Source: Citrus sinensis (taxonomy: Eukaryota; Streptophyta; Magnoliopsida; Sapindales; Rutaceae). Taken from it: 64,000 nt of DNA. Below the pieces are notes generated by a model. The model saw only the letters and a list, made by a program, of their open reading frames with translations, did no database searches and was not told the origin of the DNA. The DNA lies in the NCBI RefSeq assembly GCF_022201045.2, contig NC_068558.1, forward strand, positions 46,527,001 through 46,591,000, written 5' to 3'. The position numbers and the translations under genes were made by a program. This document shows positions 6,084-58,729 of the stretch, one piece after another. The first letter of the stretch is position 1, and each line of letters starts with the position of its first letter.

Positions 6084-6109
<26 letters not shown>
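6084..6109. repeat. (AAT)n microsatellite
   Basis: Uninterrupted AAT/ATA units in the SPL-PTI1 intergenic region, followed by imperfect AAATA units. Confidence 0.9.
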
Positions 6110-15095: not shown

Positions 15096-17330
15096 CCGGA
15101 ACCGTGACCGCCTCCGTGTCTGCGCCCATGGCGTCTACTGCGGAGCGACAGTACGTGACTGCGAAGACGTCGGTGTGGTGGGACATAGAGAACTGCCAGG
15201 TGCCGAAGAACTGTGATCCTCACACGATAGCGCAGAACATCAGCTCCGCCCTGGTCAAGATGAACTACTGTGGTCCCGTCTCTATCTCCGCCTACGGCGA
15301 CACCAATCGGATCCCCGCGTCTGTGCAGCACGCGCTCTCCAGTACTGGCATTGCTCTCAATCACGTCCCTGCTGGTATATCATTTTTCACCCTTTTTTTG
15401 TGTTGAGAATTTATTTATTTATTCTTTTATGAATATGACTTCGATGATGAATCTTCACTTTGACGGTAGAATTTCATACCAAAAAAGATCGGTTTTATTT
15501 GTTGATTGATTGATCCCTGATATTTGATTTTGTTTTAGAATTAATCGATTCAAAGTTTTGTTTTTTTGAATTTTTTAGTTTGTGTTGTATGGTGTTAACT
15601 TACGTGTTAAAGAACGGAAAAAAATATAGGTGTTAAAGATGCAAGTGACAAGAAGATTTTAGTTGACATGCTATTTTGGGCAGTGGACAACCCTGCTCCC
15701 TCGAATTATCTGCTGATTTCCGGAGATAGAGATTTTTCTAATGCTCTCCATCAATTGCGAATGAGGAGGTATAATATTCTTTTGGCACAGCCACACAAGG
15801 CATCGGCACCACTTGTTGCAGCAGCTAAGAGTGTATGGCTTTGGACAAGCCTTGTAGCTGGAGGACCCCCACTTGCTAGTGGTGAATCTCTGCTTCATAC
15901 TAATGATTTTGGTACCTTTAACCCTGAAGATGAACCTGTTCAAGTAAGCCAACCAATGGGAAACTCAAATACTGGAAGAGTTAGTGATACAAAATTAAAA
16001 GGGAAGTACACAAAGAAGCCCACAAATCAGCCTAGCATATCCAGAGTTGCAAGTGCACCAGTTCCAATGCAAGAAAGTAAGAACAATGATTATTCTTACC
16101 AGTTTGAACATTCACAACAAAAGCAGTTTAAGAAAGCCCCACATGAGTTCTTTGGTGGCACTGGTGAGCCCAGGTCCAATCCTAATTTCTTCCCTTGCCA
16201 TACCGATCTTTCAGGGGGCAATGGAAATAATTTCTCCGGAAATTTTCGGAATCAGCATCTTTTGAGGCCAAATAACTTCCCTATGCAACCAAATTTTCCT
16301 CAGGATAATTTTCTACCTCATAATTCTCAAAACCATGGTTTTCGTCCCATCCCTCCCAGCTCCAATGGCCCTAGATTCCCTCCAGCCCCACCTGCAAATT
16401 TGCCTGATATTGGTAAGCTAAATATGTCTGAGTATCCGAACTATGCTCAAAATTGTCCTAATTTCCATCCTCAAAGTGGAGAAGAACTCAAATCAAGCTA
16501 TTTTGAGTCCCCAAATCCAGCTAGCCTAAATGTACCACAAAAAGGCCATGCCATGCCTGGTGGCCAAGCAAGTAACCGTGATTCTCTAAACAGTAGGCAT
16601 TCCCGTGGTCCAGAAGGTCCACCCTCATCATCGTCCTCAACAACTTTTCCTGCTTCTAGTAATGGCGGCTGGGGGACTCAGGGACGCTTGACTCCTTCTG
16701 AATATGTACAAGGCCTTATTGGGGTTATCTTACTTGCTTTAAACACCCTGAAAATTGAGAGAGTTGTGCCGAGTGAAGCAAACATAACTGATTGCATACG
16801 TTATGGAGAACCTAAACACCGCAATACGGACGTAAGAAAAGCATTGAATTGTGCAATTGAGCAACATATGGTTATAAAGCGAAGTCTCGGTGCATTGCCG
16901 TTGTATGTTCCAAAAAATGAGAAACTATGGAATTGCGAGAACTTATATGGTAATCCTAATCAGTACCCAAAAGAGGTATGGGATCGCATACAAAAGTTTC
17001 TAACTTCCTCATCTGGAAGATCAGCAATAATGGCCTCTCAATGCAGGTAAGTTTGTCTAATAACACTAGTTTTCCTATAGTTGTAATTTTGCTGGCAAAA
17101 CAATTTTGGAAGTGTAATTTTGTGCGCTTAACAGGTATGAAGCAGCTTTGATTCTTAAAAATTCATGCTTGCCAGAGCTTGCACTTGGTGAAATTCTTAA
17201 GATCTTGAATATGGTAATCACTCCCAAGAAATGGATTATTCACCATCAGTCAGGATGGCAACCAGTAACTATTACCCTTGCAGAGTACAAAAGTGATAGT
17301 GGTTCTGAAATTGATTCTGGATCAAATTAA
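15080..17330 (+). CDS. NYN-domain (limkain-b1/MARF1-type) putative RNase
   Basis: Probable PIN-like RNase. Plant relatives are often labelled 'putative endonuclease or glycosyl hydrolase'. Exons 15080-15374, 15630-17046 and 17135-17330 give 635 residues. The NYN domain is at about residues 30-160: [11 protein letters not shown] (Asp35, Asn38) and GDRDFSNAL (Asp131, Asp133) supply the acidic residues expected for metal binding. The middle, about 180-540, is low-complexity and rich in Asn, Pro, Ser and Gln, probably disordered. The C-terminus from [15 protein letters not shown] onward looks like a helical OST-HTH/LOTUS-type RNA-binding module, though I am less sure of that. No transit peptide is obvious. 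An overlapping uORF precedes the ATG. The 3' neighbour is convergent. Confidence 0.88.
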
Positions 17331-19234
17331 AAATCAGTTTTGGTACCAGAACTGGCTCTAAATGGTTGTAGCTGCTAAGTAAATTATAAAAAATGTTAGG
17401 GCCACTTAGCTGCTGTCTTGAGTGTCTTAAAAGTTACGGTAAACGGTTCTTGCAGATCATGGAACAAGTAGGTATCGACTCCTTTTTTCTTTTCTACTCC
17501 TATTTCCTGGGAATCTCTGATGGATGTATGCTGGGGGAAGGAAAGCTACACACATGTATGATTGGCTATTAACAGGAATTTGAAATTCTTCAGGGACAGA
17601 GTTGCTGTAGTAAATTGCGCTCTGGACTTAGATCTACGCTGCAAAAGTTGTGAGTAGCTGGATTATGAGGACTTTCTACTACAGCCATCCATCTTTGGAC
17701 TAAGCGAAAGCCTTTTATCTTTGCACAATAGCTTGTGCTTAGAATGGCACTGCTAGGAAATAACGGAGATCTTTAATTTGAATTCTTAGGTTTATAAGCA
17801 AACTATGTAGTTGCTGTTACTGCAGACAGTCCACATAATCTGCTGTGTTGCTGGAATTATTATGTTATGCGGATGTGTTATTAGCCCAGTCCATGCGGAA
17901 AATGAGACAAGTCTTGCTCAAGATGGACTTAACAGGTTATGTGGACTTGTAATTGGTCAGTTAGTAATGCAATGAGGCATTCAACAGCATATGTGATGTT
18001 TGGGGTGCTAAGTTAACAGAGAAAAGAGATTGAAGCAGATGACAATATCGACGAAAATGAATCTCTTGGAAGTACACGTGTTGGAAACCAGTTCTAAGAA
18101 TGTATAACCTGTTGGTGAGATGTATTGAAGTATGTTGAGGGATGATTATCAGGAAATGTCCTGTTGGTGACATTGAAAGCACATTTGATTTCTAGGTCGT
18201 CGGGTCCATATCTACTATGATGATAGAACATATTTATCGCGTAAACTTGGATGGTTTTTCAACTTTGGGAATGCTTGTATTCTTAAATTTGTAGCTATGG
18301 ATTAAAAGATTATGGCTGGGTCACTGTATTATATAAATCTAATATGGTATGCTTCTCTAAATGAGATTACTTTATCTTATTATTTCAGCTCTGTTAGTGA
18401 TTTAACGTTTGAGTTCTATGCATTATTATTAATTCAATAGTCAATACGATGGGGGAGGGGCTGGCGGTTTCTCTTCTTCGTATTTGTATGATTGTATCAC
18501 TTCTCATCCATTTTGGTAAAGCATGTAATCTATCGGCTGATACTTCATGAAACATCAAAACCCTCGAGTAGAAGAGTTATAACGTCAATACTACAGAAGA
18601 TGTGCCATTCTTCTGGTGATGAAATAGTAGGAAGCGTCGTTTGTTCAAAATCAATTATTTATAGCGATGCTAACTTCGGCTGGAAATTAGAGGAAACTGT
18701 CCACACTACCTCTCAACCACGTCAATGGATACTGGGTTTATGCTTAGATTTCACCCCAAAGCATGAGCATGTTAATTAGTACATGATATTAGTGGGACAT
18801 AAACGAACCTTTTCTTTCTTTCTTTTTTTTTTTTTTCTTTTTTGGCTTGCCATCAAAAAAATAAAATAAAACAACCGGTATTCTATATTACATAAAAGCA
18901 CTGTTAGGGCCGATGATTGGGACAAGACACTTACTACTGCCCCAAGTAACCTTATTGAAATCACGATAACCAGAAATATTCCGGGGACAGACATTAGAAA
19001 AGAGAGATTCAGAAAATTACATGTATTTACTAACATCTAAGAACCATATAAAGGTATAATAACAATTTGGACGATAACAAACCCACGTCATACTGCAAAA
19101 ATATACTGTATCACAGGTACAATCTGAAGTTGTTATTGACTGTTCTCAGTCTCAGATCAAGCACCGATTTAACCTGGCCTTTTCCTTTTGCATGGAAAAG
19201 AGAATTTATTGACTGAAACCTTCTCAGTCTCAGA
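17331..19234. other. Convergent 3' flanks of the NYN and J-domain genes
   Basis: This is presumably 3' UTR of the NYN gene on the left and of the J-domain gene on the right. A 95-codon plus-strand ORF at 18492-18779 has no recognisable domain and no supporting context, so it is not called. A T-rich tract lies near 18810-18840. Confidence 0.6.
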
Positions 19235-22200
19235 TCAAGGAAGGAATGGATTGTGAGAAGGATATGCCTCTTTTTGCTTTTTATAAGCCCTGAGAAGAAA
19301 CAATAAAAAGATAATTTATCACCAGTTCAATCCTCTAACGCGATTACGCAAAACAAAAGATCATCATCATCTAGATTGATACTGCTAATCACCTGGCAGC
19401 ATTGAATCCCCCGAGTCCAACAGTGCCCAAGATAATAAAAAGGAAGGGAATTCCAATCAAAGGATGGTTTCTTCTTCCACCACTTGCCATTGGTACTCCA
19501 GTTCTGACAACTCGAACGCTTGTAGCTAACCAAGAAATAATATTACATCTACAGGCAGAACAAGACAGAAAAAATATAGCCAGAAGAATAAGCATTTCAA
19601 AAGAATTTCATTAAAGAAGTCACCTGAGGCTGGACCATTTCTTTTTGCACCTGTGAAGATTGAGAAAACAAGGATGTCAACAAAATATTAGCATTCTAAC
19701 ATCTTATAACCAATCAGAGTTTCCAATCATGGTTTGCAAACTCAATCGGGATGGACTTGGATAGTAGGTTGGACAACCAATAACTGACTCCAACCAAGAT
19801 ACTTCTCTCTCTTTCAGATTTGTAAATAGGCATACATATGTACGCATTGCAGGCTGTATTGTCCTTGGCAACCATAACTCGCCTACAAAATCAATAACTC
19901 GTAAAGCTAAGACAAGAAATTACCATACATTTCAAACAAAGAACAATATAAATGTCACAGGATGAGAGTGGTTACTGTACAACACCAAGTGAAACCATTT
20001 TTCTATTGATATAAAAGATAACAAGTAAACTTGCAGCAGCAAACTAACAGGGACAACTCAGTTGATCCAAAGTTCAAAGTACAAACAGGAAGTATGGGCA
20101 AGATAGGATCAACTTTAAGACTATTGGCAGAATATGCTGATCCTCTGATGACATGATACGAATATCTAAGGAAAATCAGAAATTGAAACATATAGCTCAA
20201 GGTCAATAGACAGTATACAAATAGCACCTTACTATGAGACATTGCACAACAGATTACAAGATAAGAACAAGAAATTGACAACATCAAATAACTTTCCACT
20301 AACAATTATTTACTGTCAGAATCTTATCTCACTGCTTACTTCAACTATGATGACCCCTCTCAATCAACTAATCTGTCAAATCATCATCAAGAAAATCAAG
20401 ACCATCATCATCGGTGGTAACACCTCCAGCAGCAGGATTAACCTCCAAAGGTTCAACCAAACCAGCCAATGCAACCATTTCGGCAGATCTCCTTTCTTCA
20501 TTTTCATTCTCATCTATTTCATCTCCATAAAATGGTTCCATCCCATTATAGAGGATCTCCTATAAAAGGGGAAAGAAACAAGAAATTCCACTCAACATCG
20601 CAATCATTCCAAGGAGAACCCATGCAAAAATACAAGCAGGATAATTTGTGGCCAATCCCCCATAAAAGAAAAAAATGTAGCATGCAATCATGTAATATAC
20701 CTCATCTTCTTGTATGGTCTGTCTCTCTGACTCCACCAGCCAGTCATCCAATATGCTTTCCAACATGGCATTGTCAAAAGATATCGCATCGTCAGATTTT
20801 CTTCCCAGTTGGCACTCTCTAAGTCTCAAGTTGTAGTGAACATAAGTAAGGTCATTCCATCTCTTCCGAGACAGACAGTTACGCCTTCTGCTGTGAACTT
20901 GATCGTAAGTACTCCAAGTATGTTCACACCCAACAGACGAACATGTCTGGCTTAGTATGCGTATGGCAATTCGCTGTAGCTCCAAGCAACTTATCCCATG
21001 TTGTTGCCACCATGCAGCTAATAAGATAATAATAAACAGTCCACATTTATATCATCATGAATTTGGTGTACTGCCTTTAACAAATTTTTCAATAAATAAG
21101 TTCATGGAGTCCCCATTGAATCACCTGGATCAAGCTCGCTTCTAGTACTTATAGCCAAATCAGTTCCAAAATCAGCTCTAGCTGACACAAAATCAGGTAT
21201 CTGGTAAAATAATGGCCAATCATCATCAAGATATCGAGAGACTTCTTTTAGTTGATTCTATGGCAATCTATTGATGCTCATGGAACATTTTCACCTTGAG
21301 ACATCAAGTAACCAAATTGCTCTAGCATCACACATTAAATACCATATCAAAGGAAAACAAAAACTACCAAAATATAAATAAAAAACCTGCATGGATGCAG
21401 ATATCCTCTTCCCATTATCCACTTCCAGACGAACAATACATTCATTTAGACCACGAATTATCTCAGGATGCTACAGTTAAATAGTTGAAAATTAAGATTA
21501 GAGAAAGAGGGTGCAGGGTAAGAAAGATCATTAGAAAGCCGTTATTTCAACATTTTCATACCATAATAAAATCAGGACGATAGCGATAGGATGGGTTGAG
21601 GAAGTAAGCTGCCACGTGAAGAGGATGATGGAACAATGAGTTCCACTGGCTGTCAATCACACTCCAGAATGGTCCGTATTTTCGTGCATCATCACCATGA
21701 ATTGCCTTAATGGCAAGCTTAGCTCTATACATGTCATTATATAAAAATGAAATTGACCGGCTTTCAGTACTATCTATCTTTTGGAGAACTTGCACAATCG
21801 GTCCTAAAGATTTCTTCACATACTGCATCTTCTTCCAAAACGTTAAATTTAAGACAATTTTCTCCATTTCTTTACCTTCATCAGACTTGGAAAAGCGGGA
21901 AGAAAGCCATTTGTTTGATTGGAACAATCTCTTAAGACCAATCCTTTGGTCTAACAAACTCTGTAAAGTGTTAAAACTAGTGGCAAACTTTGTTGTAGCG
22001 GGCCTAAGAAGTTCCTGTCCCTTTGTGAATTCTTTCTTCATAACATTCAACAACCATGTACTATTATAAATGAATCTGGTAAGTTTTTTTGCTTTATCTA
22101 GGCATTCTCCTACCCACTTTATGTTCAGGATATCATCAAGCATTCGGTCAATGCAATCAACAGCACATGGCGTCCAAAATAGATTTCTTCGTTTCTCTTC

Positions 22201-25200
22201 AAGCATTTTCCCAGCAGCCTTGAAACTAGCAGTATTCTTAGTAATTACCTGTGATAGAAGTTTGAAGATATCAGATTAAAAAGTGGCTAGTTAAGTAGAC
22301 TAAAAAGTTGAATTGTGGATAGATAAAATTGAAAACTTCAACTACCTGGACGACATTCTCCTCCCCAATCTCTTCTACCACTTTGTCCAACAACTTGAAG
22401 ATGTTAGCAGCATCTTCTATTGAATCAGTGGCGTCCATAGAAGATATAAAATATAGACCACGAGGGCAAGAGACCAAAAAGTTTATTAATGTCCTACCCT
22501 GCACATCATTCCAACAATCAGCCATAACTGAACAACCAGTAATGGACCAAGAAGCCTTAACTTCTGCTAAGTTCTCTTTAATTGTAGCAATTTCATCCTG
22601 GAGGAATCGACCAGATATTAATCTACTTGAAGGTCCTTGTAAACCTTGGCCATATTGACCAACTAGCTCTAGCATGTTGTGGAAATATGGGGAGTTTGCA
22701 GCATTTGAAGGAATTCCAGCATGATAAAAGAACTTGCAGATAGCTGATATCACCTCCTTGCGGATTTTCTTCTCAATACCCGTCTTTGCCTTCACATGCC
22801 CAGAGTAGGGTGATGTCTGGCTTTTGAGTGACTTCAGGAACACAGAATCCAGTCTTGATCTTCTCACAGGTGGTTCAGTGCCATTGCCACTGCTACTAGG
22901 GGATCTACCCTTGACATTATATCTGACCTCAGTATCTGAAACTTTATCATCAATAGCCACTATGTCCTTGGTTACACATTGCAAAAACCTATTGTCATCC
23001 TCTTCCTCTTCATCCTCATTATCTGACTGCATGTAGAAGGCAGATATCTCCTTGGTATCTGGTTTCCGATGCCTTCTGCCAGTGCGGTGCCATTTCATGT
23101 TCTCCTTGATTTTGAGATACACATCCTCAGGTGCCTTATCACAATATGCAACTTCTCCAGGGATCCTTGCCAGATGTTGTTTAAAACGATTTATGCCACC
23201 ACTAATAATTTTTTCACAATAATTGCATTTTACCCTTTTCTTCTTTTCGTCTTGGGCAACACAATGTTCCCATCCAGGGTCCATGTATCCTAATGATCGA
23301 AGAGGAGCAAATCTTATGACCAAGTTCTTATCACTCATCACTTTCTTGCCTCTGTGCTTATAACCTGTAAGTGCATCTTCTGTGTCATTATAGTCACTAG
23401 AGTGGAAACTTAAAGAAGCCTGTTCATTTTCAGATTGACTTCGTTTCCGACCAGACCGACATCCTTCCAGGTTTTTTCTCATATTCAAGCATACATCATC
23501 TGGAACCTTCTCACAGTGAGTAACTTCCCCAGACATTCGGGCTAGATGCTGCTTCAATCTGAATATTCCACCACTAACTATTTTCCCGCAGTAGTTGCAT
23601 TTAACCTTCTTTTTCCTTTCGTCTTGGGCAATGCCATGTTCCCATCCAGGGTCAACATATCCTGTAGATCGAAGTGGGGCCATCCTTCAATCATATAACA
23701 AGCAGCTTGCAACAGAAACTTTATTTATTTGGCTGTTATATGATTGAAAGAAAAATTAAATTAAGTAAACGTAGAAATAGATTTTTTTTTAAAGTGTAAA
23801 AAATAGAAAAATAGAAAAGAGTATTCAAGTTTCAAGAGACGTCATACGCTTTCAGCACATGGATGTAAATGAAAAAGAAAAATTCTTGACATGGCATTTC
23901 GTGTTATATTTATCAGACATGCCAAACAATGTTGGTTTCGAAACATCTGTCAATTTAAAGCATTCAATGTACGCTATTTTTACATCCCATACCGTTATTA
24001 ACATAAATACAAGTCTTGTTTCCCTTATTAAAAAAAATAAAAATAAAAATAAAGAATGCGCACACACACACAGAGACACAAACTGATATTCACTAGGACA
24101 ACATTATCTCATAGTACAATCACTAAAGCTTCGACTATTATCTCTTTACATGAATTCCAGTCGTGATCAGACCAAAAGAGTCTCCCACTTGATTGAAATC
24201 TTCGAAATATTTATTAAGGAACACTCACATAAGTATACAAGAACTGCATTATTTATCAAAGAAAACTTTCCCAAAATGAAGACCATCAGAACTGCACGAA
24301 TTCTGACTAATTGAGTGACCACATCTCAACTTGTCACAGGTAAAAGTGATCAAATGCTTTCCACTAATTTTTCCTAGATTCACAAGCGTAAAAAATGACA
24401 GTGGCAGAATTCAAGCAGATGAAAGGGACTCAAGAACTTTCAGATGTACACTAACTTGCCTGTTTTGAAACACAGGAAACCTTTTGCAAAGTGCAAATCA
24501 CTTGTCACATGCCCCCACAAAGACGGAACTGCCTTGTATGTATTCCTCGGAAGAATCAAATGAAGCAGGATCTAATTACCAAAACTACAATAACAGGTAA
24601 GTTGATAACTTGAGAACAGGACATTAGTCAAGAAACAGACAGCTCAAAAGCATAGCATATACAAAACATTCAAGGTCATTTCAACATAGAATGCATGTAG
24701 CATCATAAATTCACTACTTTGAAGATCCAGACAGCAATTCTAATCAGGCATGAATGATTATCCAGCAACACTAGAAGTCCACTGGTGAGTTTGCAAACCA
24801 TGATTTTCTGGATTACTTCTATTAATATTCACAAAAATGTGAAGAGATGAAAATTACCAGACAGCAGATAAGTGTAAGCTTCTGAAATCTGCAGCAAATA
24901 CATATATCAGAGTCAGACTCCCTCCGGCGTTAGATAAGTAAACATATAATATAGATGATATTCAGAACAAATTAATGCACAGCTTGAAAATACGAAAACA
25001 AACTACAGTTAAGAAGCCAAATCAGACCCTTAGTTGAACTATAATGGAGCAAGATTATATCTTAAATCTTGTAACATAATGCTTTCAAAACAGTTTAAGC
25101 AACTAGCCACATACCAATTTGAACTTAGACTCAGCATCAGTCTTTCTCCCAACTGGAAAGAGATCGGGATGACACTCCCATACTTTCCTTTTATAGGCTG

Positions 25201-25521
25201 CTTTAACCTACCACAACACCAAAAAGCTGGCTCGGTCATAACCATATCAAAGTCCAGGAAACCAGTCCATTCGACTCAAGGTCAACAAGTCTAATCAAAA
25301 CTGATAGTAGAGTGAGTCCAATTGATTCATTGGTCGTAATGACCAATCAGACTTAGAACGTAAACCCTAATGTTCTCGGTTTCTATAAAATACAAAGAAG
25401 ATCAATGATCATATCAAAATTGAAAGAACGAAAATAAATAAATAAATAAAAGTACCTGAGAAGCGTTGGGGCGAGAATTTGGGGGGAAGCCTAGCAAAAC
25501 CCTGGCTTCATCGCCCTGCAT
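19235..25521 (-). CDS. Small J-domain protein with C-terminal membrane anchor (host gene of a nested hAT gene)
   Basis: J-domain co-chaperone expected to stimulate an Hsp70 at a membrane surface. Six coding exons on the minus strand: 25521-25456, 25207-25115, 24888-24858, 19650-19624, 19525-19393 and 19289-19235. All junctions are GT-AG and phases match, giving 134 residues. The first three exons make the J domain: helix I EARVLLGFPPNSRP, helix II AAYKRKVWE, the diagnostic HPD motif (CHPDLFP), and helix III/IV KFKLISEAYTYLLS. A basic linker GAKRNGPAS follows. Exon 5 then encodes a hydrophobic segment HPLIGIPFLFIILGTVGLGG, with a short tail AYKKQKEAYPSHNPFLP after it, so the protein is probably membrane-anchored near its C-terminus. 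Exons 3 and 4 are 31 and 27 bp, easy for gene finders to miss. Intron 3 is 5,207 bp and contains a complete same-strand gene. Organelle not determined. Confidence 0.82.
20368..23683 (-). CDS. Domesticated hAT transposase with two BED fingers, nested in the J-domain gene intron
   Basis: Transposase-derived, probably a nuclear DNA-binding protein. Exons on the minus strand: 23683-22346, 22248-21562, 21470-21387, 21200-21125, 21017-20701 and 20559-20368, giving 897 residues. Two BED-type zinc fingers repeat almost the same sequence: residues about 11-57 (Cys29, Cys32, His46, then His56/Cys57) and 135-181 (Cys153, Cys156, His170, Cys181). Each starts DPGWEH. A DUF659-like block follows around 310-450, then the hAT core, then the C-terminal dimerisation block containing DPAAWWQQHG and CSSVGCEHTWS. 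The acidic tail ends LDFLDDDLTD. The usual hAT aspartate motif (form VxTDNA) reads VITKNTAS, with Lys450 where Asp belongs, and the downstream CAxHC motif reads CAVDC. Catalysis is therefore unlikely. Five introns, no frame breaks and no visible TIRs argue for a host gene rather than a live transposon. Confidence 0.9.
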
Positions 25522-27510
25522 ATTTCTATTATTTCTTTCGGGTTGTGAAATGCCTCATGATTTAGTTTGGACTTTAAATTTTTTGAATAAATTTTGAAAT
25601 TTTGAAAAAAAATTTAGGTGTGAACGCTTTCTCGGACAAGTGTTTAATTTCTAGTGGGTGATCGAAGATTAAAGTTGAAAGTAGTTGTGTGTATGCGAAG
25701 ATGCGTGTGTCTGCTCGTCGACCACATTGGCTTTTGGTCGGCATAAATTATTCATGATGAACAAATTTGGAAAAACTATATATGTATATATATGTATATC
25801 AACCCCACAGGCCACGGGCTTCCCCCGTGTGCTTGCTGCTTGAGCGACATCACAGGTGAAACGGTATTAAAACATCTCTTTTTTAACCGTTTTAGATAAC
25901 TAACAATTTCAACACTAGAAAAATACTATTTGAAGTAATAAAACAGTCAAATAAAGGTGACTTGAGGTCATAATTTTGGAAAAAATAAAATTGTCTTCCC
26001 AATTTCCTCTCTCTAAAATTAGAACCACACTAAACCCTAATTGAAATACTCATAATTCATCTCATGATTTCAATTAGTTGGCATGGCTACGCTCTAAAGG
26101 ACTTGGTTGTCTTTGTCACGGGCAGCCATGGGTTTAGTTGAGCGGCTAAGGGTTTAGTTGCATTAGTTGCACGTGTGACATGCCATATGTTAATTTGGTA
26201 TCTATGGCTGCATGCAGCCATGGGTGGGGTTTGGTTGCCTTTGAGTTCTGAGAATTTTCTTAACCATGATAAGCAACTGTAATTGATAACTATTCAGAGA
26301 ATTCAAATCTGGAATTTTGACTTCCAAACTAATTGGATTATTGTAAAACTCGGGTAGATTTTAATTTTACTTTAGTTTTTATTTACGGGTAGTTTATTTG
26401 AAATTATTTGTTGACAAAAAATTTTGGGAGAGAGAATATTGAAGTTGTATTGCATTTGTTTGCAAAAGAAAGTGGGTTTTATTAAACGAGGATGAATGAA
26501 CAACAAGAACCTGTGAGTCTTATTAGATGAAGATGAATGAACAGTAGCTAATGATTTTAAAAATTTTAGTGCTTGAAATAGTTAAATTAAATTAATGTTA
26601 AAGCGCATTTTTGTCCTCCAAAGTAAAAATATAAGGGGTAATGATCATTTCATCTAATAATACATATACAATAATATAAGAGTGAAAAAAAAATAAAAAT
26701 TTTGACTTCTTCGTAACTGTTTCAAATTGTACAGGTATTATATTACTCTTTTTAACTATTAAAATTAACGAAAAGATAATAAATTTTGGGAAATAACTTA
26801 AGATTTTAAAAAATAAAAGGGCAATTTAAATTTTACCCTAAATAATAAGATAAACTTCAAGTTTACACTCCACAACACCTTCTTCAGTATGTGGAAGTAA
26901 ATTAAATAATTGGTTAATAAAGGATGGCTAGCTAGCATATTAATGTCAGCTATCTAATAAGCATGGCTTCTAAATTTAACATGGGAGGAATGACCACTTT
27001 CACTGAATAAGAAGCTATTTGGAACTAATTATAGAGTGTATTGTTTCTACGTCGCATGCTTACCCCCAGCTACAACATTGACCAACATCCGACTCATCCA
27101 CTACTATAAAGTAGTTGAAAGTCAGGTCCATCCATAAATCTTCAAATGTTAGAAATAATTTTAGGGTCTGCTGGTTTTTAAACCTTTGCCCACATCCACT
27201 AATTTTACTTTTTTTGTATGAGTAGCTACTCAAGTTCAGTACTCCATACGAAACATGATCCAGTTTTATTTTAGCAAAAAGATTATGTTATAAAATCCTG
27301 TATGCAAAACACAATTAATATTAGGCATCAAGGAAAATTAGTTTAACAAAACTTGATTAATTCTTTAATTAAAAGAGGAAAAACTCTATCTAATTAATTA
27401 ATTATTAGCTAGCTAGCTAGGTGTCTCTTCATTAATTGCTCTGATCCTTTTTTTTTTTTAGTTAATTAGGACCTCTCATCGGAGTGGGACATTTGAAAGA
27501 ATATAAGAAT

Positions 27511-32680: not shown

Positions 32681-33634
32681 TGTTGAAAAATGGGACACTG
32701 CTCTTCTAGAAGAGAATGCACCCAAAGTCTCACATGGCCCGCTATTTTTGGTGGTGCCACAATGTTTGAAGAAGAAAAAAAGAAAAAAGAAGTTTGAAGA
32801 AGAAAAATGCAGGCACGCGGTTTTGACAAAGAAAAAAAATTAATATTTTAATAGCCAATTTTGGCTATAAAAAGGGAGCTCCCCATTTCATTTTAGGCAT
32901 TCAATTTTGTGAGAGAGAAAGCAGAGAGCTTGAGTGATTTTAAGGGCTTAAACTTATAAAGTTCTTCTGAATTTAGTAAGTGAGAGATTGAGTGTATTAG
33001 AGTTTTGGGTAGTGAGTCAAGTCAAAATATTACAATATTTGTAATCCTCATATCACTAATAAAATATTTTCCTTATGTCTTCGTCCGTGGACGCATGCTA
33101 AAAGCCGAACCACGTAACTTCTGGTGTCTCTGTGTGATTCTATTGTCTCATTATTTCTCAAATTTACTTTAGTTGCGTGTCTACTTCACCTAATCATTTT
33201 CCAACAGTGGTACCACTTACGTTATTCGACTTTTAGTTTGCGTCCACGGGCGAAGACAGAAGGAAAATATTTTACTAGTGATATGAGGATTACAAATATT
33301 GTAATATTTTGGCCCACTTCTAGAACTTCAATACACTTAATTCCTCACTCACTAATTACACAAGAGTACTAGAACTCTTAATCTCTCACACAATTCTTAA
33401 TTTTTTCTCTCACAAAATGGATTGAGAATTGAAGAATGGGATGATAAAATAAAGGGGTGAGCCCCTCTATTTATAGCCAAAATTGGCTATTAGTTTAATA
33501 TTTTTTTTCTTTGTCAAAACAGTGTCTCTATTTTTTTTTTCTTCTTCAAGTATTGCGGCACCACAAAAAATGGCAGGCCGTGTGATACTTTGGGTGTACC
33601 TTCTTCTAGAAGAGCGGTGTCTCATTTTTCAACA
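32681..33634. mobile_element. Fold-back element made of an LTR and an inverted truncated LTR
   Basis: The left arm (32681-33206) looks like a complete Copia-type LTR: it starts TGTTGAAAAATGGGACAC, has a TATA box at 32866-32873 (TATAAAAA), an AATAAA signal near 33057, and ends TTTTCCAACA. After a perfect 10-bp palindrome GTGGTACCAC (33207-33216), the same LTR continues inverted (33217-33634), lacking about 90 bp of the 3' part, and ends TTTTTCAACA. The 5-bp sequence ACATC sits directly outside both ends (32676-32680, 33635-33639). The whole inverted structure was therefore inserted as one unit. No coding region. It lies 185 bp past the RF1 stop codon. Confidence 0.8.
32866..32873 (+). promoter_or_regulatory. 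LTR TATA box, left arm of fold-back element
   Basis: TATAAAAA within GGCTATAAAAAGGGAGC, placed as in LTR promoters. It faces the centre of the fold-back element. The right arm has the mirror-image TATA box (TATAAATA on the minus strand, 33468-33475), also facing inward. Confidence 0.6.
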
Positions 33635-35351
33635 ACATCTGTCTCCTTACTAGTACATATGACCGTATGTTACTGTAGTGACTCAAATCAATGTCAAAGC
33701 ATTTATACATGTGTGTGTGTGTGTGTGTTTTAGAAGACTAAGCAAATGCTCTTGGATGAATCGTGAATTTTACAGGCAGGTTATGCAGGTTAGGAAAGCA
33801 TTGGCACCCGTTTTATCAGGCCTATATTGCAGAGTCAGCAAATAGAGATGTTTGATACAATACATGATATTTAAGCCTCAATCTCCACAGCGCACTACTG
33901 GCTTAAGTGCCTCGCCTTGGTTACTGGATAAGTTACAAGTTACTTTCTTCGTATAGTATTTATGATTATTATTTTTGAACTTTACGTTCTTATTTAAGTA
34001 ATGACGACCCACAGAACTATAGCGCGGATGGAGAGTTATTTCATCGTCATTCTCGCCTCGTTGGGACAATTATCGGCCCACATGTCCAAGTGGATGATAA
34101 AATTAGATTAGATTATAAATGTTATCCTTTGGACCCCGCAAATTATTTACTAATTTATGTAGATGATAAAATCATGATAAGTTGTCTAATATAATAATAA
34201 AGTTTGATAAAATTATGATTAGTTGTGTAATCTTGAGGACAAAGCTGTGGTCCCCCGTCATACAGTATCCTCACCTTTTGACTTTTGTGATTGTACTACT
34301 GCTAAATTTCATGGAGTTACTTTCTTTCTTTTATTTATTTAATTATGGGATCCTGTTTGGAATTAATGTTGTAGAAAAAAATTATAATTATAAAATAAAA
34401 GTTAATTATATGTATTAAATATAAATTTTAAATAATAATTTTTATGAAATTATTAAATATATAATAGATTTTTCATTATACAACTAAAAAATCATATTAA
34501 TATAGTTTTTAAGTTACATCAATTGGTGTTTACGAAATATTTTAGTCTTGTAATTTTTAAGAAGTTACAGTTGTTTAATTGCAGATAATTTTTATATTAC
34601 AGTAGCTGGTGTTTATTAAATACTTTAATTTTATAATTTTGAAATTATAACTGTTCAATTTCAATTCCAAATGTACTCTAAGTGTTAAATGCAACTTTTA
34701 AATATCTCGTAGCTAGCAAAGAATTGGATTTATGAAATTGAAATGGCTTAATGAGAAGTATATTAGGAAGATTGATAACAACCTAAAAGCATTAAGTAGT
34801 ATATGTGATTTTTTTTAGCAATATCACAGCTAGGGTATTGCTTAAACATGTAAAAATTGTGTTCACTAACTTTAACTTACTCTTTATTTACTCCTTTCAT
34901 TCTCATTTTTGTACACCATACTATTAGCTAATCTATATCTCAACCTGAAATCCTTCCACTTCCATCTCCGAGAGGTGTATCCAACAAATTTCTTCCTAAA
35001 ACGATGTCAGTTATGGTCGCAGCTGTTAATGCAACCTCCGCATCAAACTTTGTCGCTCATCTTGCTAACAACAGTAGAGGAAGAGCCAACACAACTTCAA
35101 TTTCTTTTTCTTCCAACCAATGCTTGCCATGGCCAGTGCTTCAATGTTCTTATCTCCATAGAAAGCGAAAAGAGATCAAAGATTTCCTATAGTAAAAAAA
35201 TATGGGTTCGCCTGTCTAGTTCAATGCATTTCTATTTTCTCTACTCGTTACTATTGTTACTACATGGATGTTTTCACTTATTTATCTTGATTAATTTTGT
35301 TTTAATTGCTAACATGACCTTTTACATATCTACGTGTGCTTTCACTAGTAA
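33635..35351. other. Intergenic, A/T-rich, with a possible first-exon remnant
   Basis: A GT dinucleotide run lies at 33711-33728. Most of 34070-34900 is noncoding A/T-rich sequence. The only coding-like part is 35004-35192, listed separately. The LINE begins just after. Confidence 0.6.
35004..35192 (+). pseudogene. Possible 5' gene fragment with plastid-transit-like N-terminus
   Basis: A 62-codon ORF begins MSVMVAAVNATSASNFVAHL and stays rich in Ser, Thr, Asn and Ala with few acidic residues, like a plastid transit peptide. The pyrimidine-rich sequence before it resembles a plant leader. No downstream exon was found: the 5'-truncated LINE begins about 160 bp later. It may be the 5' end of a gene cut off by that insertion, or a chance ORF. 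I do not recognise the protein. Confidence 0.3.
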
Positions 35352-35390
35352 TAAATAGCAAAGCAATCCTTTACACAGTCAGCTTTTTGG

Positions 35391-36533
35391 GTGCAATTAC
35401 ACAATGTACCAGTTGGATGTATGGAGCAAGAAATTGTGAAAATGCTGGGGGAAACCATTGGAAAGGTTGAAGAAGTTGATGCTGATGAAGAAGGGGAATG
35501 CATTGGCCGATTTGCCAGAGTAAGGATCTCCATTGATATTACGCAGCCTCTAAAAAAGATAATATATCTAGAGCATGCAGGGGGAGAAGAAATTCCGATT
35601 CCAGTGGTATATGAGAGGCTACCAGAATTTTGCTTCTGCTGTGGTCGGATAGGACACCCATATAAGGAATGTGATAAGTACGAAGGGCAAACGAAGGATG
35701 AACTTGCTTATGGGGTGTGGATGCAGGCAGTCCAGTTGTATGGAAAATCCAGAGTTAACAGCAGTTATGAAAGAGGGCAACATGGTAGTAGCAAACCGGT
35801 CAATCACCCAACAAAGACAGGGTACCAGGAGCAAAGGGGAAATTCTCACCCTCAACGTCAAAAGCCCTCTCAATGGAACAAGGCCAGTGAAACCACAAGC
35901 GAACCAAGCTCCAACCAAGAGGACATACACGTGGCAGTCAGCCAAGAAGGCATTGCTAAGGAGATGGGGGAAGATCAATTAATGCCTGTCGTGCAGGAAT
36001 CGAGAAACCTACAAATGGACTGCAACCAGTCAGCTATGACAGCTAGCAATGAGACACATGTCAAAGCTCTGACCAACAGAGCGGGAACAGCAAGCAAAAA
36101 AGGGAGGGAAAATGAAAATTTAACCCGGGAAAGGAGCTTGGTTATTGGGAGGTTGGAAAAAGAGTATGAGGCCCAGAATAGCGGTGAAGAAGAGGAAGGG
36201 ATGGAAAATGGGCCAGAGCTAGTACGTCAAAAGCCCAAGGGGAAAAATTGGAAGCGCCAGGCTCGGATTAAATGCGAGAAAGGTGCAGTGAAGTTGGAGA
36301 CATACTTAAAGAAGAGACCATGTCATGAACAATATGGAATAAGCCCAAACCAGAAAAAACTTAGAATGGCTAGCCCGACTAAGCCAATGCCGAACCAAAA
36401 GCAAAAGAGTTCACCTTCAGTAATGCTCAAGCTAGCATGGGAAACGATGTCAGTAGAGGAGTTAGAGATGGCAACCCCAAAAACTACAGACGCAGCGGCG
36501 GAGGCTGGTGGCCAGCCCCGCCGACAGCCATGA
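35391..36533 (+). pseudogene. LINE ORF1 (gag-like, CCHC zinc knuckle), 5'-truncated
   Basis: Nucleic-acid-binding ORF1 protein. The frame runs in from about 35355 with no ATG and includes SAFWVQLHNVPVGCM, the end of the DUF4283-type domain. The zinc knuckle CFCCGRIGHPYKEC lies about 80 residues in. The remainder is Lys/Gln/Glu-rich and probably disordered. The frame is open through to TGA at 36531-36533, which overlaps the ORF2 start in ATGA. Confidence 0.85.
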
Positions 36534-39500
36534 AAATCCTCAGCTGGAACGTTCGGGGTTTGGGGAATTCCCGGACGTTTCTAGCCCTTCAAAAAATTCT
36601 CCAACAACAAAGGCCGTTAATTCTGTTTGTTTGTGAAACGAAATTAACGGCTAAGCAGATGTATGAAACAAGTAGGAAGCTTAAGATTGATAACTGTTTG
36701 GCAGTGAATAGAAACGGCAAGGGAGGGGGTTTGGCTATGCTATGGTATAATGAGGCTAATGTGCATGTCACCTCGTACAGCAATCATCATATTGATGCCC
36801 GGGTGCAGAGAGAGGATGGTAGCTGGATGAGATGCACTGGCATTTACGGACATCCTGAGATGTCACAAAAACATCACACTTGGATATTGCTGAAAAGGTT
36901 AGCAGATTTGTTTGATATTCCCTGGTTATGCTTTGGTGATTTTAACGAGATTCTGCACCCGAATGAAAAACTAGGAGGAAATGATAGAAATGTTAACATG
37001 ATTAGTGAGTTTAGAGAAGCTTTATGTGAATGCAATTTGATTGATCTGGGCTGTAAAGGGTACCCCTTCATATGGAGTAATGGTAGGTTCGGCCAGCATT
37101 TTGTAGAGGAGAGGTTGGACCGATTTTTGTGTAATAAGAAATGGAGAGAAAAGTATGTGGACTGTGCAGCTGTTAATCTAGAGACGTGGACCTCAGACCA
37201 CTGTCCTATCATCATGGAAGTGCAAGCTAAAGGTAGTGCGTTAAGTTATGCGCCAAAAAGGACCTCAAGAATCCATTATGAGGATGCATGGAGCAGTTAT
37301 GAGGGCTGTAAAGACATTGTTGATAAGGAATGGAGGAGGCATGGCAACTGGAAATGTGCTGACCCGGTTTGGCTCTTTAAACAAACAACAAAGTCTTCGA
37401 TGGCTCAGCTTAATAACTGGAGTAACGAGGAATTTAAAGGGAGGCAGCAAAAGTTAGAAAAGCTGACAGCTAAACTGAAGGAGCTGAGACACAATGGTGT
37501 GCAATATAGTGACGGGAAGGAAATTAAGAGAGTTAAAAGTCAGATCCAGAACATCTTGCTTGACGAAGAAATTTATTGGAAGCAGAGGTCTCGGGCAGAT
37601 TGGCTGAAGGAGGGTGATAAAAACACTAAGTATTTCCACGCCAAAGCATCATCTCGAAGACGAAAAAATAAAATCTGGGGTATAGAGGACAGTCAAGGTA
37701 ACTGGATGCAGGAAGAGGAAGAGGTGGAACGAGAATTTTGTAGCTACTTTGCTAACTTGTTCACCGCCTCCAGACCAGACCAGAAGCAGGTGGATGCAGC
37801 CCTAGAAGATTTGAAGCCAAGAGTCACCGATGAGATGAATGAGCAACTGATGCAGCCATTTACGAAAGAGGAGATTGTGGAGGCGCTGTCCCAGATGTGC
37901 CCTACCAAAGCTCCAGGGCCCGATGGACTGCCAGCGGCCTTCTACCAGAAGCACTGGAACACAGTTAATACGGGTGTGGTCAACACATGTCTCCATATCC
38001 TGAATGAGCGAGGTAATATCACTCCTCTCAACCACACTTACATTGCTCTGGTTCCAAAGATTAATAAGCCTAGAAAAGTGTCTGAGTTTAGACCCATAAG
38101 TCTATGTAATGTAATTTACAGAATCATTACAAAGTCAATTGCAAATAGGCTAAAACAACACCTCCACAAAGTGATCTCTCCATCCCAAAGTGCCTTCATA
38201 CCGGATAGACTCATAACTGACAACATTATTATAGGATATGAATGCCTTCATAAGATTAGGCACAGTAAAGGGAGAAAAAATGGCCTTATAGCTCTGAAAC
38301 TAGACAATAGTAAGGCTTACGATAGGGTGGAGTGGCTGTTTTTAAAGCAAGTAATGCTCGAGCTAGGCTTTGCGGAACCTTGGGTCAACTTGATCATGAG
38401 ATGCATTACCACATCTTCATTCTCTATTATTATCAATGGGACAGCTTTTACCCGCAAAGAGGGCTAAGGCAGGGCTGCCATCTTTCCCCTTATTTATTTC
38501 TCATGTGTGCAGAGGCATTCTCGAACATGCTGCACAGGGCCGAAGAAAAAAGAGTCATCCATGGGCTAAAGTTCAGCAAAGATATCACCATATCTCACCT
38601 CTTGTTTGCCGACGACAACCTTATATTCACAAGAGCCTCAGAAAATGATTGTATGCACCTGAAAAGAATCTTTGAGTGTTATGCCGCTGCCTCAGGTCAG
38701 CTCTTTAACTACGACAAATCCTCCATGTTTTTCAGCGGCAACATAACCAATGGGGTCATTACGGCAATTAAGAACATCTTCCAACTGAATGTAGTTTCTA
38801 GACATGAAAAATATTTGGGGCTTCCATCCATGGTCGGGAGGAAAAAATCGGGATTCTTCAATGACATTAAGCTGAGAGTGTCCAGCAAGATTGCGGGTTG
38901 GCAGCACAAGTTCTTTTCGTGCGGAGGGAAGGAGATATTGATAAAGGCAGTAGCTCAGGCGGTTCCAGCATACGCTATGAGTGTATTCAAAATCCCCATG
39001 AGCATTTGCACAGATATTCAGCGAGCAATTGCGAGGTTTTGGTGGAGCAGCAACATAGAGAAAAAAGGGCATTCACTGGGCAAAATGGGAGAGGCTAAGC
39101 CAAGCTAAACGGAGGGGAGGGCTAGGATTCCGAGACTTTGCAAGCTTTAATCAGGCATTGGTAGCTAAGCAAAGCTGGAGAATTATTCAGTTCCCTGAGT
39201 CCCTGGTAGCAAGAGTCTTACAAGCGAGATATTTTAAGGATAACCAGTTCCTTACTGCAAAATTGGGCTCCAAGCCCTCATTCATTTGGAGAAGCATACT
39301 ATGGGGGAGACAAGTGATTCATAAGGGGATTAGATGGAGGATCGGGAATGGTCAACAAGTTCAAATCTATAAAGGGAACTGGATTCCAAAGCCCACGTCC
39401 TTTAAACCAGTTTCCCCTCCATCTTTACCAAGTGACACACGGGTAGCTGAGTTGGTCAAGGAGGATAACCAATGGAATGAGGATATGATCCGCCAACATT

Positions 39501-40647
39501 TTTTGAGAGAGGATGCTGACATAATCTTAAGAATTCCTCTCCCTAGCACACCAATGGCTGACCAAATTCTTTGGCACTATGATAAGAAAGGAATTTACAC
39601 TGTCAAGAGCGGATACCAAGTGGCCCTGAGGATTAATTTCTCGGATACCCCTTCCTGTTCAGAGCAGCCAGCCAACCAATGGTCGATTATTTGGTCCATG
39701 TCCTTACCAGAAAAAATCAAGATCTTCATCTGGAGAGCAGCAAAAAACATACTTCCAACAGCTGAGAACTTATGGAGGAGGAAAATAGTGCCACAACCCG
39801 AATGCCAAATTTGTGGAATCAGCATGGAAACTGTTGGTCATGCACTGGTGGAGTGTAAATCTGCTCGCAAAATCTGGAAAACTACCAAGTTTGATGCTGA
39901 GCTTAAACACATTGGTGGCCATGACATTCTGGGCATATTGCATGTGCTGGTGAAAAGAGTGGGGAAATCAGATACAGAGTTGGTGGTTGCTCTTCTCTGG
40001 GTAATTTGGGGTGTTCGAAATCAAAGCTTGTTCAAAGGGAAGAGGGAGGACCCTGGCATAGCAGCAGCTAAGGCTGAGGTTGTTGTGGAGTCTTTTAGAA
40101 GGATCCAAAGTACTGGGACAATGGCCCATACTGGAGATACATTGGAGAATCATGTATGCTGGGGCCCCCCCCCCCCCCTCCAAATTGGTGTAAGATCAAT
40201 GTGGATGCAGCTGTAAATCTGGAGGATTATTTAGTTGGGCTGGGAATTGTTATACGGGATGCTAACAAGAATTTTGTGGCTGCTGCAATCAAGAATACAA
40301 AGCTGTACAGTGGCGTTACCTTTGCAGAAGCAGAGGCAATGAACTGGGGACTGAAAGTAGCTTATGATGCAGGGCTGGCAAACATAATCATTGAATCAGA
40401 CTCTCTCGAAGCTGTAGATTATGTTAACAACAGGAAGAGTAGCAGAACAGAGATCCAGTGGCTAATTTTGGAAGTTCAGAATAGATTGAAGGAGTTTTGT
40501 TCTTGGAAAACACTGCACACGCCAAGGTCTTGTAATGCCATTGCTCATTCTCTAGCAAAGTTAGCTCTAGAGAAAAGTATAACTGTTGTTTGGGTAGGTT
40601 CGTACCCCTCAGAAGTCATGAATTTGTTAAACTCTTTTATGGAATGA
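36530..40647 (+). pseudogene. LINE ORF2: endonuclease, reverse transcriptase, RNase H (frameshifted)
   Basis: Starts MKILSWNVRGLGNSR, the canonical start of the plant L1 endonuclease, at 36530. Endonuclease motifs include CETKL, CFGDFNEIL and TSDHCPII. The reverse transcriptase covers about 37880-38750: APGPDGLPAAFY, FRPISLCN, LKLDNSKAYDRVEW, RGLRQGCHLSPYLF (Cys replaces the usual Asp after RQG) and the catalytic FADD in LLFADDNLIF. The zf-RVT block includes CQICGISMETVGHALVEC. RNase H occupies 40190-40610 with NVDAAV, AEAEAM and ESDSLEA. Frame changes occur near 38440, at the AAAAAAGGG run about 39061-39069, and at the C14 run 40165-40178, so no full ORF2 product can be made. Confidence 0.88.
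40165..40178. repeat. C14 homopolymer at the third LINE ORF2 frame change
   Basis: GGGG is followed by 14 C residues between the zf-RVT and RNase H coding segments. The downstream RNase H frame is open from the start of the run (PPPPP...). This break could be replication slippage or a sequencing error rather than a fixed mutation. Confidence 0.8.
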
Positions 40648-49554: not shown

Positions 49555-52073
49555 CTATGCATATACATGGCATGTTTTTCTGTTGTGCCCTGCTCCTTTG
49601 CACTTGCTACAATGCAATTCTCTCTTAGGACGCCCTCTCCATCTTATTCTTCTCTTCTTTGGCGGCCCAGTCAAAGGTAGAAGCGGAGGGGGGCGAACTT
49701 GAACTGGTACTTGAACTTGCGCAGATTGCGAAGCTTGCAAAAGCTGATCTACTGCTGGGACTGGATTTACTGATTCTGAATATGTCAACCGGAAAGCTTC
49801 AGTTGTATAAAACTTGGAGCAATAGTCAGGCAAATTCCTACCCACATGCTGAAGGACGGCCGCTGCATGGACACATGGGAAACCATTCAGTTGCCAACCT
49901 CTGCAATTACAGTCCCAGACATCAATGTTCACAACATTGAATGTACCCAAACCACGGACCTCAAAAGAACTACCCAGTCCTAATAGAACTTGGAGAGAAT
50001 GTGTTTTGAGCATTTCATTCTGTAATTTATCTTCCAAAGATGGAGTTAACTTTGTCAACCACTGATTTGAATCCATCCTCCGGCTGTACATCAGCTCCAT
50101 AATCTTACGGCAAATGGTACTGATAATCTGCACTATTGGCAATTCAGGAAGCTCACCCACCCAGCAATAAAATGATTCAGCAATGTGTGATGTCATTTGG
50201 TTGTGTCGTGAACCTTTGAAGAGCGCATTTGCCCAGTTTTCAGGTTCACTACGCAGAATCCAATCAAAGGCCTCAGATGAAACACTCTTAATGCTGTCAA
50301 TGAATTTGCTAAATTCGTCAAGTGTGCCAGCTTGAGCGGCATCATACAAGTGAGCAACAATCACACTAACAACTTCCTCAGTATATGAGCCTTTCAGATC
50401 TCTTTTTAACTCCTCTGTCAGATGATGAAGGCAATAACAATAGTACGAATTTTCAAAAACCGAGAGAATAGACGCTCTCAGTTGCCCCAGCCTATCTGTT
50501 ACAAATGTTATTGATTGGCATGTTGAAAGTGCAGATTTTAATTGAAGCAAGAACCAATGCCAATTATCATCACTCACAGCATCTACCACACCAAAAGCAA
50601 CTGGAAAAATTTCATCATTTCCATCCAATGCTGTAGCAGTCAGTAAACTTGATTGGTACTTTGATTTTATAGGAAAAGAGTCGAGAAAAATAAGAGGGCG
50701 GCAACCATTCTGAAACCCATATAATGAGGCATGCAAGGCAACAAATAAATGATGGAAACTCAAGTCCTCCCTCGTACTAAGAGTGACCACACTACCCGGA
50801 TTTGTCTCCAATATTTTATCAACTAGCCAAGGCAGCTGATTGTAAGAATCTTTGTATGAAACTTGAGACTCTCCCCGGGCATTCTCTAAGGCACGCCATG
50901 CTTTAACATATCCTAATTCAATTCCAAAATCTCGGCGAATTTCTTCAGCAATTTCTTTTGGTTTACATTTTGGGGCCTCCAGCAACTTCTCCTTTACAAT
51001 CGATGCCAGCAATTTCCTAGAGGCTTTGGAACGAGTTGTTGGATCAGGGCCCGCTTTACATGTATGCATTCCATTCATTGTTTTGATTTGAAATAATTGT
51101 GTTGTAGGGACTCTCGACGCATGAATCCTCCATGGGCAACCTTCAGCTTTGCACTTTGCGGTTACACGCAACCCCTCATTCTTCTTAAAACAGTAAGTGA
51201 AGCCATGAGCAACTGAATATTTGTACAAGGCATCACGAAAGTCATGAACATTATTGAACCGCTGGTGTACACCAGTTATGCAATTTTTCCATGATTTGAT
51301 AAGTTTCTGCTGCCTAAGATCGGAACCAGCTGGAGCTGAGTTACTGAGCTGCCTTGTATCTCCAGCATCTGAAGCAGCTGGAAACAAGGTGTTGAGTAGC
51401 ACCATGTCTCCAGAAACAGAAGGAAGGGGAATTAAATTGTCAGACGGAGTGACGGACTCAGCCCCTGTTGTCCTGCTAGACCTGCAAGAACAAGTTTCCA
51501 TGAGATAAAAAAGCAACAGTGACAACTATCTATACTTGGCTAAACTCTGACCAAGAGCCCTGAATGTGCAAATAGTTCAGCAGCACCCTTTTCAGGTTGC
51601 TATCAAAACTTGATGATTGACCAGTGGACTAAAGAGTCCTACCATGAACCTGAACCATATGAAGAAAACAACATAATAAGACAGAACAATTTTATGCTAA
51701 TCCAAACTTAAACAAGTGCACACTACCTACTGCAAGGATTGGTCAAAGCATCATCTGTCGGCTTCTCACCAACCATGACATAAACATCAACAGTTCCAGA
51801 ATCTTCATGAAAATCAATCAAGCGTCTTATATCTTTGTCGCCAGATATTGTGATGAGAGTCTTATTGTTGTTAGGGAGGAAATACTTGACAATCATGGAA
51901 TTAGGATCATACTTCCACATCTCCGCCATCTCTAACTTCAATTCATCAAATGAACTCTCTTTATTTACACTGAGAGCATGAGCATCCCCACCCGAGTACA
52001 CCAATGAACCATCATTGGCTGTTGTAAACTTCCCACCTGACTGACATATAAGAATAAGTTTTCCCTTACCCAT
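49555..52073 (-). CDS. MUSTANG-type domesticated MULE transposase with N-terminal PB1 domain
   Basis: Mutator-transposase-derived plant protein of the MUSTANG family; the PB1 domain places it in the MUGB group. Family members are essential or growth-affecting nuclear proteins in Arabidopsis. Coding exons 52073-51727 and 51481-49555 give 757 residues. A noncoding leader exon probably ends near 52560, joined to a splice acceptor just before the ATG. PB1 is at about 1-100, with KLILICQSGGKF and TITISGDKDIRRLI-like sequence. A MuDR N-terminal WRKY-like zinc region (CKAEGCPWRIHA...) follows, then the MULE transposase core with FLDSFPIKSKYQ and FVTDRLGQL (both Asp retained), YCYCLHHL, and IAESFYCW. 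Near the end come a SWIM finger CNCRGWQLNGFPCVHAAAV and a CCHC knuckle CSKCKGAGHNRKTC. No TIRs were found around it, consistent with domestication. The donor choice at 51727 is fixed by frame. Confidence 0.92.
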
Positions 52074-58588: not shown

Positions 58589-58729
58589 GGATCCAGCTAT
58601 GGTGCCACAGTTGTATGGTACCACAGCTGGATCCAACCATTGGATCTAGCTCTGGTGACAACTGTGGGCTAGATCCAATGGTTGGATCTATCTGTGGTAC
58701 CATACAACAGTGGTACCACAGATTTGTCC
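58589..58729. mobile_element. Mutator-like fold-back MITE, 141 bp
   Basis: Almost the whole element is an inverted repeat: left arm 58589-58650, right arm 58668-58729, with 17 bases between. About 52 of 62 positions pair; the inner 34 bp are nearly perfect (TTGTATGGTACCACAG, ATCCAACCATTGGATCTAGC). A 9-bp TAGTAATTA lies directly outside both ends (58580-58588, 58730-58738), the duplication length typical of Mutator-like elements. RNA from it would form a long hairpin. Confidence 0.8.

Follow-up and report, generated by a model that had tools for sequence, protein, structure and literature searches.

SOS splicing of DNA transposons depends on inverted ends that pair in RNA, with the result that the transposon is removed from the transcript. 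Functional long-range helices, as tabulated in a review, are mostly of 13-22 bp and close loops of 100-14,000 nt; the table includes Drosophila Nmnat, where complementary intronic sequences (14 bp, spread over about 400 nt) control the choice of exon and poly(A) site within one gene with alternative ends, an arrangement reported to be conserved (PMC6027157). Human paired regions (PCCRs), which are defined by conservation among vertebrates, are intronic, generally lie near splice sites and avoid branch points; the most stable of them are underrepresented within the 75 nt adjacent to splice sites, and the paper describing them advances the hypothesis that folding and splicing suppress premature polyadenylation (PMC8052449). 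For the stems formed by repeats in large animal introns the idea is that the distance between splice sites is shortened, and in human introns these stems mostly consist of SINE and LINE copies (PMC2773006). The plant systems available for comparison use either a ligand-bound aptamer or chromatin marks over intronic transposons. In the THIC thiamine riboswitch, RNA pairing decides the splicing of an intron that bears a poly(A) site (PMC10226581), and in Arabidopsis, RPP7 and PPD7 transcripts are polyadenylated prematurely once intronic transposons have lost their heterochromatic marks (PMC10241880). In animal cells, SAFB keeps nested genes from functioning as gene traps (PMC10901741).

Here we describe a locus within a 64,000-nucleotide window of the Citrus sinensis genome (the window being the whole stretch of DNA that was analysed), at which the third intron of a small J-domain gene is predicted to contain a complete hAT-derived gene and carries a perfect 20-nt inverted repeat with its arms close to the intron ends. 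The helix that these arms would form differs from that of Nmnat in its length (20 bp), in its loop of 5,041 nt and in having a separate gene inside; it is known from one genome, unlike the conserved Nmnat pairing and the PCCRs. Like the PCCRs, the arms are intronic, near splice sites and clear of the putative branch point. However, they lie or begin within the 75-nt windows from which the most stable human class is depleted, which counts against a direct transfer of the human model, and the loop here holds a complete gene. Whereas human intron stems are built mostly from SINE and LINE copies, genome-wide DNA searches found the arms and their flanks nowhere else. The THIC aptamer is controlled by a ligand and masks a single splice site in the 3' UTR instead of pairing two intron ends around a gene (PMC10226581). 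The locus also differs from SOS splicing in that ordinary GT-AG splice sites are present, outside the inverted repeat.

Nested architectures of this type are already known, and the locus adds an example; complementary intron ends around a complete domesticated plant gene would be a new variation if the helix is functional. Among the titles and abstract openings listed in searches of the open-access PMC literature, there was no publication on this nested pair.

Predicted structure of the nested genes

According to the initial annotation, an intron of a J-domain gene houses a domesticated hAT gene of the same orientation. The coordinates in that annotation proved exact to the base (Table 1). The host gene comprises six minus-strand exons running from 25521 to 19235, which join in frame to give 405 nt (134 codons and a stop); all five introns are GT-AG, the phases match and the frame is open throughout. 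In the predicted gene models a single host intron of 5,207 bp encloses all six exons of the inner gene, so that the inner coding sequence lies wholly within one intron of the outer gene and on the same strand. The exons flanking this nesting junction are merely 31 and 27 bp long, as had been claimed, and should serve as a warning for annotation; the smaller of the two, exon 4, leaves the reading frame preserved whether it is included or not.

Table 1. Positions of predicted genes, RNA elements and signals at the nested locus (numbering of the window).
Feature	Position	Strand	Basis or remark
Host exon 1 (ATG; start of J domain)	25521-25456, 66 bp	-	in frame; donor CAG/GTACTT
Host exon 2 (J domain, HPD motif)	25207-25115, 93 bp	-	frame and Pfam
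Host exon 3 (end of J domain)	24888-24858, 31 bp	-	frame; donor CTG/GTAATT
Host intron 3, with whole inner gene inside	24857-19651, 5,207 nt	-	frame, GT-AG
Inverted repeat, 5' arm	24805-24786	-	52 nt of intron between donor and arm
Weaker complementarity inward of 5' arm	24735-24785	-	z -2.95, 6/1000 shuffles as good
Hairpin before inner ATG	23683-23751; arms 23734-23751 and 23683-23700	-	z -4.5, 0/1000 shuffles as good
Inner exon 1 (two BED fingers, most of DUF659)	23683-22346	-	frame and Pfam
Inner exon 2 (rest of DUF659; VITKNTASF site)	22248-21562	-	frame and alignment
Inner exon 3	21470-21387	-	in frame
Inner exon 4	21200-21125	-	in frame
Inner exon 5 (hAT dimerisation domain)	21017-20701	-	frame and Pfam
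Inner exon 6, stop codon	20559-20368	-	in frame
Candidate inner-gene poly(A) signals	20311-20002: AAATAA 20311, AATAAT 20310, AATAGA 20007	-	hexamer search
Partner of inward extension	19745-19815	-	weakly complementary to 24735-24785
Inverted repeat, 3' arm	19744-19725	-	74 nt of intron between arm and acceptor exon
Branch-point-like A (CTAAT)	19688	-	38 nt before acceptor, outside stem; motif match only
Host exon 4	19650-19624, 27 bp	-	in frame
Host exon 5 (hydrophobic, probably transmembrane segment)	19525-19393, 133 bp	-	hydropathy
Host exon 6, stop codon	19289-19235, 55 bp	-	in frame

The host product is a J-domain protein, matching Pfam DnaJ (E 2.6e-9) and carrying the HPD motif within CHPDLFP. 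Its hydrophobic segment is C-terminal (residues 95-113, hydropathy peak 2.18). Forty-five PDB sequences matched at E up to 1, all of them aligned inside residues 8-86, and the C-terminal half encoded by exons 4-6 had no match in Pfam or PDB. Small plant J proteins have this type of C-terminal end, and it is because of this ending, together with the open frame, canonical splice sites and phases, that we assign exons 4-6 to the J protein. The junction of 24858 to 19650 across the inner gene is likewise a prediction from frame, phase and splice sites. It is extremely unlikely that the host fragments are not one gene, with exons 1-3 and exons 4-6 belonging to separate transcripts or to a decayed gene. 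Such a reading would draw on the unmatched C-terminal half and on the very short exons 3 and 4, but a single 134-codon frame extends over all six exons with matching phases and canonical sites at five of five introns, and the last exons yield a clean hydrophobic segment. We are confident that the host and inner gene models are both correct.

A search of the 299.7-Mb genome revealed the host gene at this locus only; the sole further match is a DnaJ frame of ordinary type with another C-terminus, and no host paralogue lacking the inner gene turned up.

The inner gene is intact, with 2,694 nt (897 codons and a stop) and five of five introns GT-AG. Its derivation from a hAT transposon is borne out by Pfam, which detects DUF659 (1.8e-59), zf-BED (4.7e-17, in two stretches) and Dimer_Tnp_hAT (9.8e-15); the transposase core had no PDB match at E up to 1. 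Domestication, which the initial annotation had asserted outright, is likely: the gene looks domesticated because the 299.7-Mb genome yielded no second copy of it and its closest relative, at C1:24680782-24683449, is 58-67% identical over the main pieces. It counts as a single- or low-copy hAT-derived gene, with no near-identical family found. The remaining relatives show 24-36% identity across long core pieces, and the match counts of this genome-wide search are lower bounds. Within 15 kb around the C1 locus there was no match to the host gene.

We aligned the VITKNTASF site among the inner gene, its C1 relative and four more distant relatives, which are a subset of the hAT-like loci in the genome. 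The inner gene has K at this site and the C1 relative has Q, while the distant relatives have D (L039 and L040), S (L041) and C (L042). The aspartate needed by hAT transposases presumably maps about this site; with K there, the inner protein may well have lost catalysis.

Among characterized genes we take the inner gene to be similar to Arabidopsis At3g17450, both being BED-finger, hAT-derived host genes. At3g17450 is listed among exapted hAT genes, two of its insertion lines showing salt and phosphate phenotypes (PMC5715367), and is highly expressed across the tissues examined (PMC9296551); the cited accounts of exapted hAT genes describe no nesting in a J-domain gene. Membership of the SLEEPER family, whose coding sequence is without introns (PMC3499209), was ruled out by the five introns in the inner coding sequence.

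A second transposase-derived open frame lies elsewhere in the window, at 49555-51525 (-), and encodes 656 aa with DBD_Tnp_Mut, MULE and SWIM domains. These domains are, we assume, as in MUSTANG-type domesticated genes.

Complementary ends of intron 3

The initial annotation overlooked the complementary stretches near both ends of intron 3, and it is these that bear most directly on how the host could cope with the inner poly(A) signals. Together the sequences outside the two arms amount to 126 nt (52 + 74), and the nine other introns of both genes measure 91 to 248 nt. The real sequence has an exact inverted repeat of 20 nt; among 200 dinucleotide-shuffled versions of the intron, none contained one longer than 16 nt. 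A scan of 103 kb (the window and six loci), from which simple sequence had first been removed, found the 20-nt repeat to be the only exact inverted repeat of at least 17 nt with a spacing of 1-8 kb; at a length of at least 16 nt there was one other, a 16-nt pair of A and T alone. In the unfiltered window 48 inverted pairs of 20-mers occur within 8 kb. One is the intron 3 pair, and the other 47, all with an arm spacing below 1.2 kb, fall in a microsatellite-like stretch near 6084, in foldback-like elements near 33000 and 62200, and in a hairpin near 58630.

Two further repetitive elements were seen in the window. The foldback-like element at 32681-33634 has 110-nt arms that are 85% complementary and an inner 95-nt pair at 92%. 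LINE-type retroelement pieces, lying in several frames, extend over 34876-40647 (+), and the frame at 36383-38467 (+) contains endonuclease and reverse transcriptase domains.

The arms are also rare in the genome at large. Allowing up to one mismatch, the 20-mer occurs at two places in 300 Mb, namely the two arms, and the reversed control at one; the nearest matches beyond the arms have two mismatches, and with up to three mismatches there are 72 genomic matches against 58 for the control. DNA searches of the genome with each flanked intron end, in which very common words were skipped, matched only its own locus. With each end matching itself alone in these searches and the 20-mer confined to two places at up to one mismatch, a dispersed repeat, other than one made of the skipped common words, was rejected as the source of the inverted repeat. 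A search of positions 18500-27000 against Rfam gave nothing at the gathering threshold.

Local alignment of the first 358 nt of the intron with its reverse-complemented final 350 nt gave a score of 42, and 2,000 shuffles gave at most 37. The first 200 nt against the reverse complement of the last 200 nt again scored 42; when 1,924 real tiles of 200 nt, all taken outside the intron, were aligned with either end, none reached this value (maxima 38 and 32 for the two ends). Two 20-nt arms placed at random in the intron would fall this near both ends with a probability of 0.0004, a figure that is inapplicable if the arms are the remains of a transposon, for which a position at the ends is expected.

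Folding predictions assign -30.1 kcal/mol to the 20-bp helix alone, and none of 1000 shuffles was as good; the predicted pairing is uninterrupted, exceeds the 12 bp taken as the minimum for a long-range intronic helix of the Nmnat or PCCR kind, and has its arms towards the splice sites. Pairing of the next 50 nt inward beats 994 of 1000 shuffles (987 of 1000 when 85 nt are taken), and the parts outside the helix, with the donor, CTAAT and acceptor, pair no better than chance (622 of 1000 shuffles as good). Besides the CTAAT, three other loose branch-point matches are found within the same 74 nt before the acceptor. Co-folded, the two intron ends reach -101.4 kcal/mol, compared with -31.1 and -50.3 kcal/mol separately; the predicted self-folding of each end is thus stable and could compete with the helix. 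Of all sites in the intron, the 5' arm is predicted to pair best with the 3' arm (-50.2), the next separate site reaching -36.6.

Pairing as a proposed splicing clamp, and alternative readings

Because the inner gene lies on the same strand and has its own candidate poly(A) signals, the host must escape premature truncation. We propose, and give an even chance to the idea, that the 20-nt inverted repeat acts as a splicing clamp for the host, of a kind described in Drosophila and human genes. In the host pre-mRNA, the intron ends would pair at 24805-24786 with 19744-19725, with an imperfect continuation of about 20-27 nt inward. This pairing would loop out some 5 kb, inner gene and inner poly(A) signals included, and would leave the donor, branch point and acceptor about as far apart as in an ordinary 126-nt intron, such that the host might be spliced faster than its transcript is cleaved at the inner poly(A) site. 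We infer both the pairing in the cell and the benefit to splicing, as well as the limits of the inner transcript: an inner mRNA starting downstream of 24786 and ending before 19744 would have neither arm and would be unaffected. If it does start past the 5' arm and end before the 3' arm, only host transcripts would hold both. Complementary intron ends would then be a simple RNA solution, and one that is searchable in any plant genome.

Several considerations count against the clamp. The case is one perfect helix in one genome, which can show no compensatory change, and a transposon inserted in a 126-nt intron would leave inverted repeats at the same places. Many genes, moreover, splice long introns without such a helix.

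hAT transposons have terminal inverted repeats, and the 20-nt repeat could be what is left, without present function, of the termini of a transposon that carried the inner gene along when it inserted into an intron then 126 nt long. The arms bracket the inner gene and what remains of the intron is of ordinary size, the weaker inward complementarity resembles decayed longer repeats, and such an origin accounts for the position of the arms as well as the clamp does. We consider it possible but doubtful. No flank-to-flank 8-bp target-site duplication was detected at 7/8 or better in a scan of 70 x 70 positions, at which level a more decayed one would escape; each of the nine pairs that scored at least 7/8 draws on bases belonging to the 5' arm. 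At this threshold the locus shows an inverted repeat but not the flanking duplication of a mobile hAT element. The usual hAT ends start differently from these arms, and the arms are identical at 20 of 20 positions next to a continuation that has decayed. The aspartate absent from both the inner gene and its C1 paralogue, and present in two of the four distant relatives, hints at an old domestication. Finally, the C1 locus (L037, 10 kb) was without an inverted repeat of at least 16 nt at 1-8 kb spacing once simple sequence had been removed, and its best match to an arm was no better than 15/20.

The clamp and the relic reading may also be combined. Transposon and host would then have been domesticated jointly in two parts, the transposase giving rise to the inner gene and the inverted ends to an RNA clamp, possibly one that switches between host mRNA and inner mRNA; we regard this as unlikely.

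The ASI1/EDM2 route handles plant introns with heterochromatic transposons, and by this route or through an SAFB-like factor the host might pass the inner poly(A) site by protein means, the inverted repeat being incidental. The premature polyadenylation of RPP7 and PPD7 after loss of marks (PMC10241880) and the protection of nested genes by SAFB in animals (PMC10901741) are precedents for protection of this kind. However, the inner gene is intact and without a second copy and would not be an obvious silencing target, and such a route gives no reason for the 20-nt inverted repeat whose arms lie close to the two ends of the intron. Protein-based protection as the sole explanation is thus very improbable in our judgement, although it could coexist with the clamp.

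Candidate splicing into the inner gene

The initial annotation had suggested that host and inner gene may compete or share a promoter, and the sequence offers one candidate form of such competition, in which host exon 3 would be spliced to the inner gene. A stretch rich in pyrimidines finishes with TTTCAATCATATAACAG at 23733, 49 nt upstream of the inner ATG, and host exon 3 joined to this site would encounter a stop after 65 codons. The site borders the hairpin listed in Table 1, of which no second copy was found. The 5' arm of the hairpin overlaps the 3'-splice-site-like sequence (AG at 23733) and its 3' arm ends on the inner ATG; in unspliced RNA it could mask both. The candidate poly(A) signals, identified by a search restricted to nine hexamers, sit between the inner stop and the 3' arm, inside the predicted loop.

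These elements would allow the helix to act as a switch: with the intron ends paired host mRNA would be made, and with the ends unpaired exon 3 would be spliced to 23733 and the transcript would end at the inner poly(A) site, carrying a 65-aa frame with the J domain only, followed by the hAT reading frame. The acceptor-like site, the stop that follows it and the unusually strong hairpin alongside it are consistent with this, and Drosophila Nmnat offers a case in which the choice of exon and poly(A) site is tied to intronic pairing (PMC6027157). On the other hand, the site at 23733 may simply be the acceptor of an intron in the inner gene's 5' UTR, and an upstream frame of 65 codons would impede translation of the inner frame. 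We hold a switch to be decidedly unlikely, and keep the clamp as the preferred function of the helix.

Two observations concern other coding sequences. A 479-aa open frame at 15611-17050 (+) of the window contains NYN and DUF7625 domains. Matches to terpene synthase exons number 162 genome-wide, and they form clusters that include C9:25.07-26.19 Mb, C8:25.58-25.78 Mb and C5:9.26-9.51 Mb.
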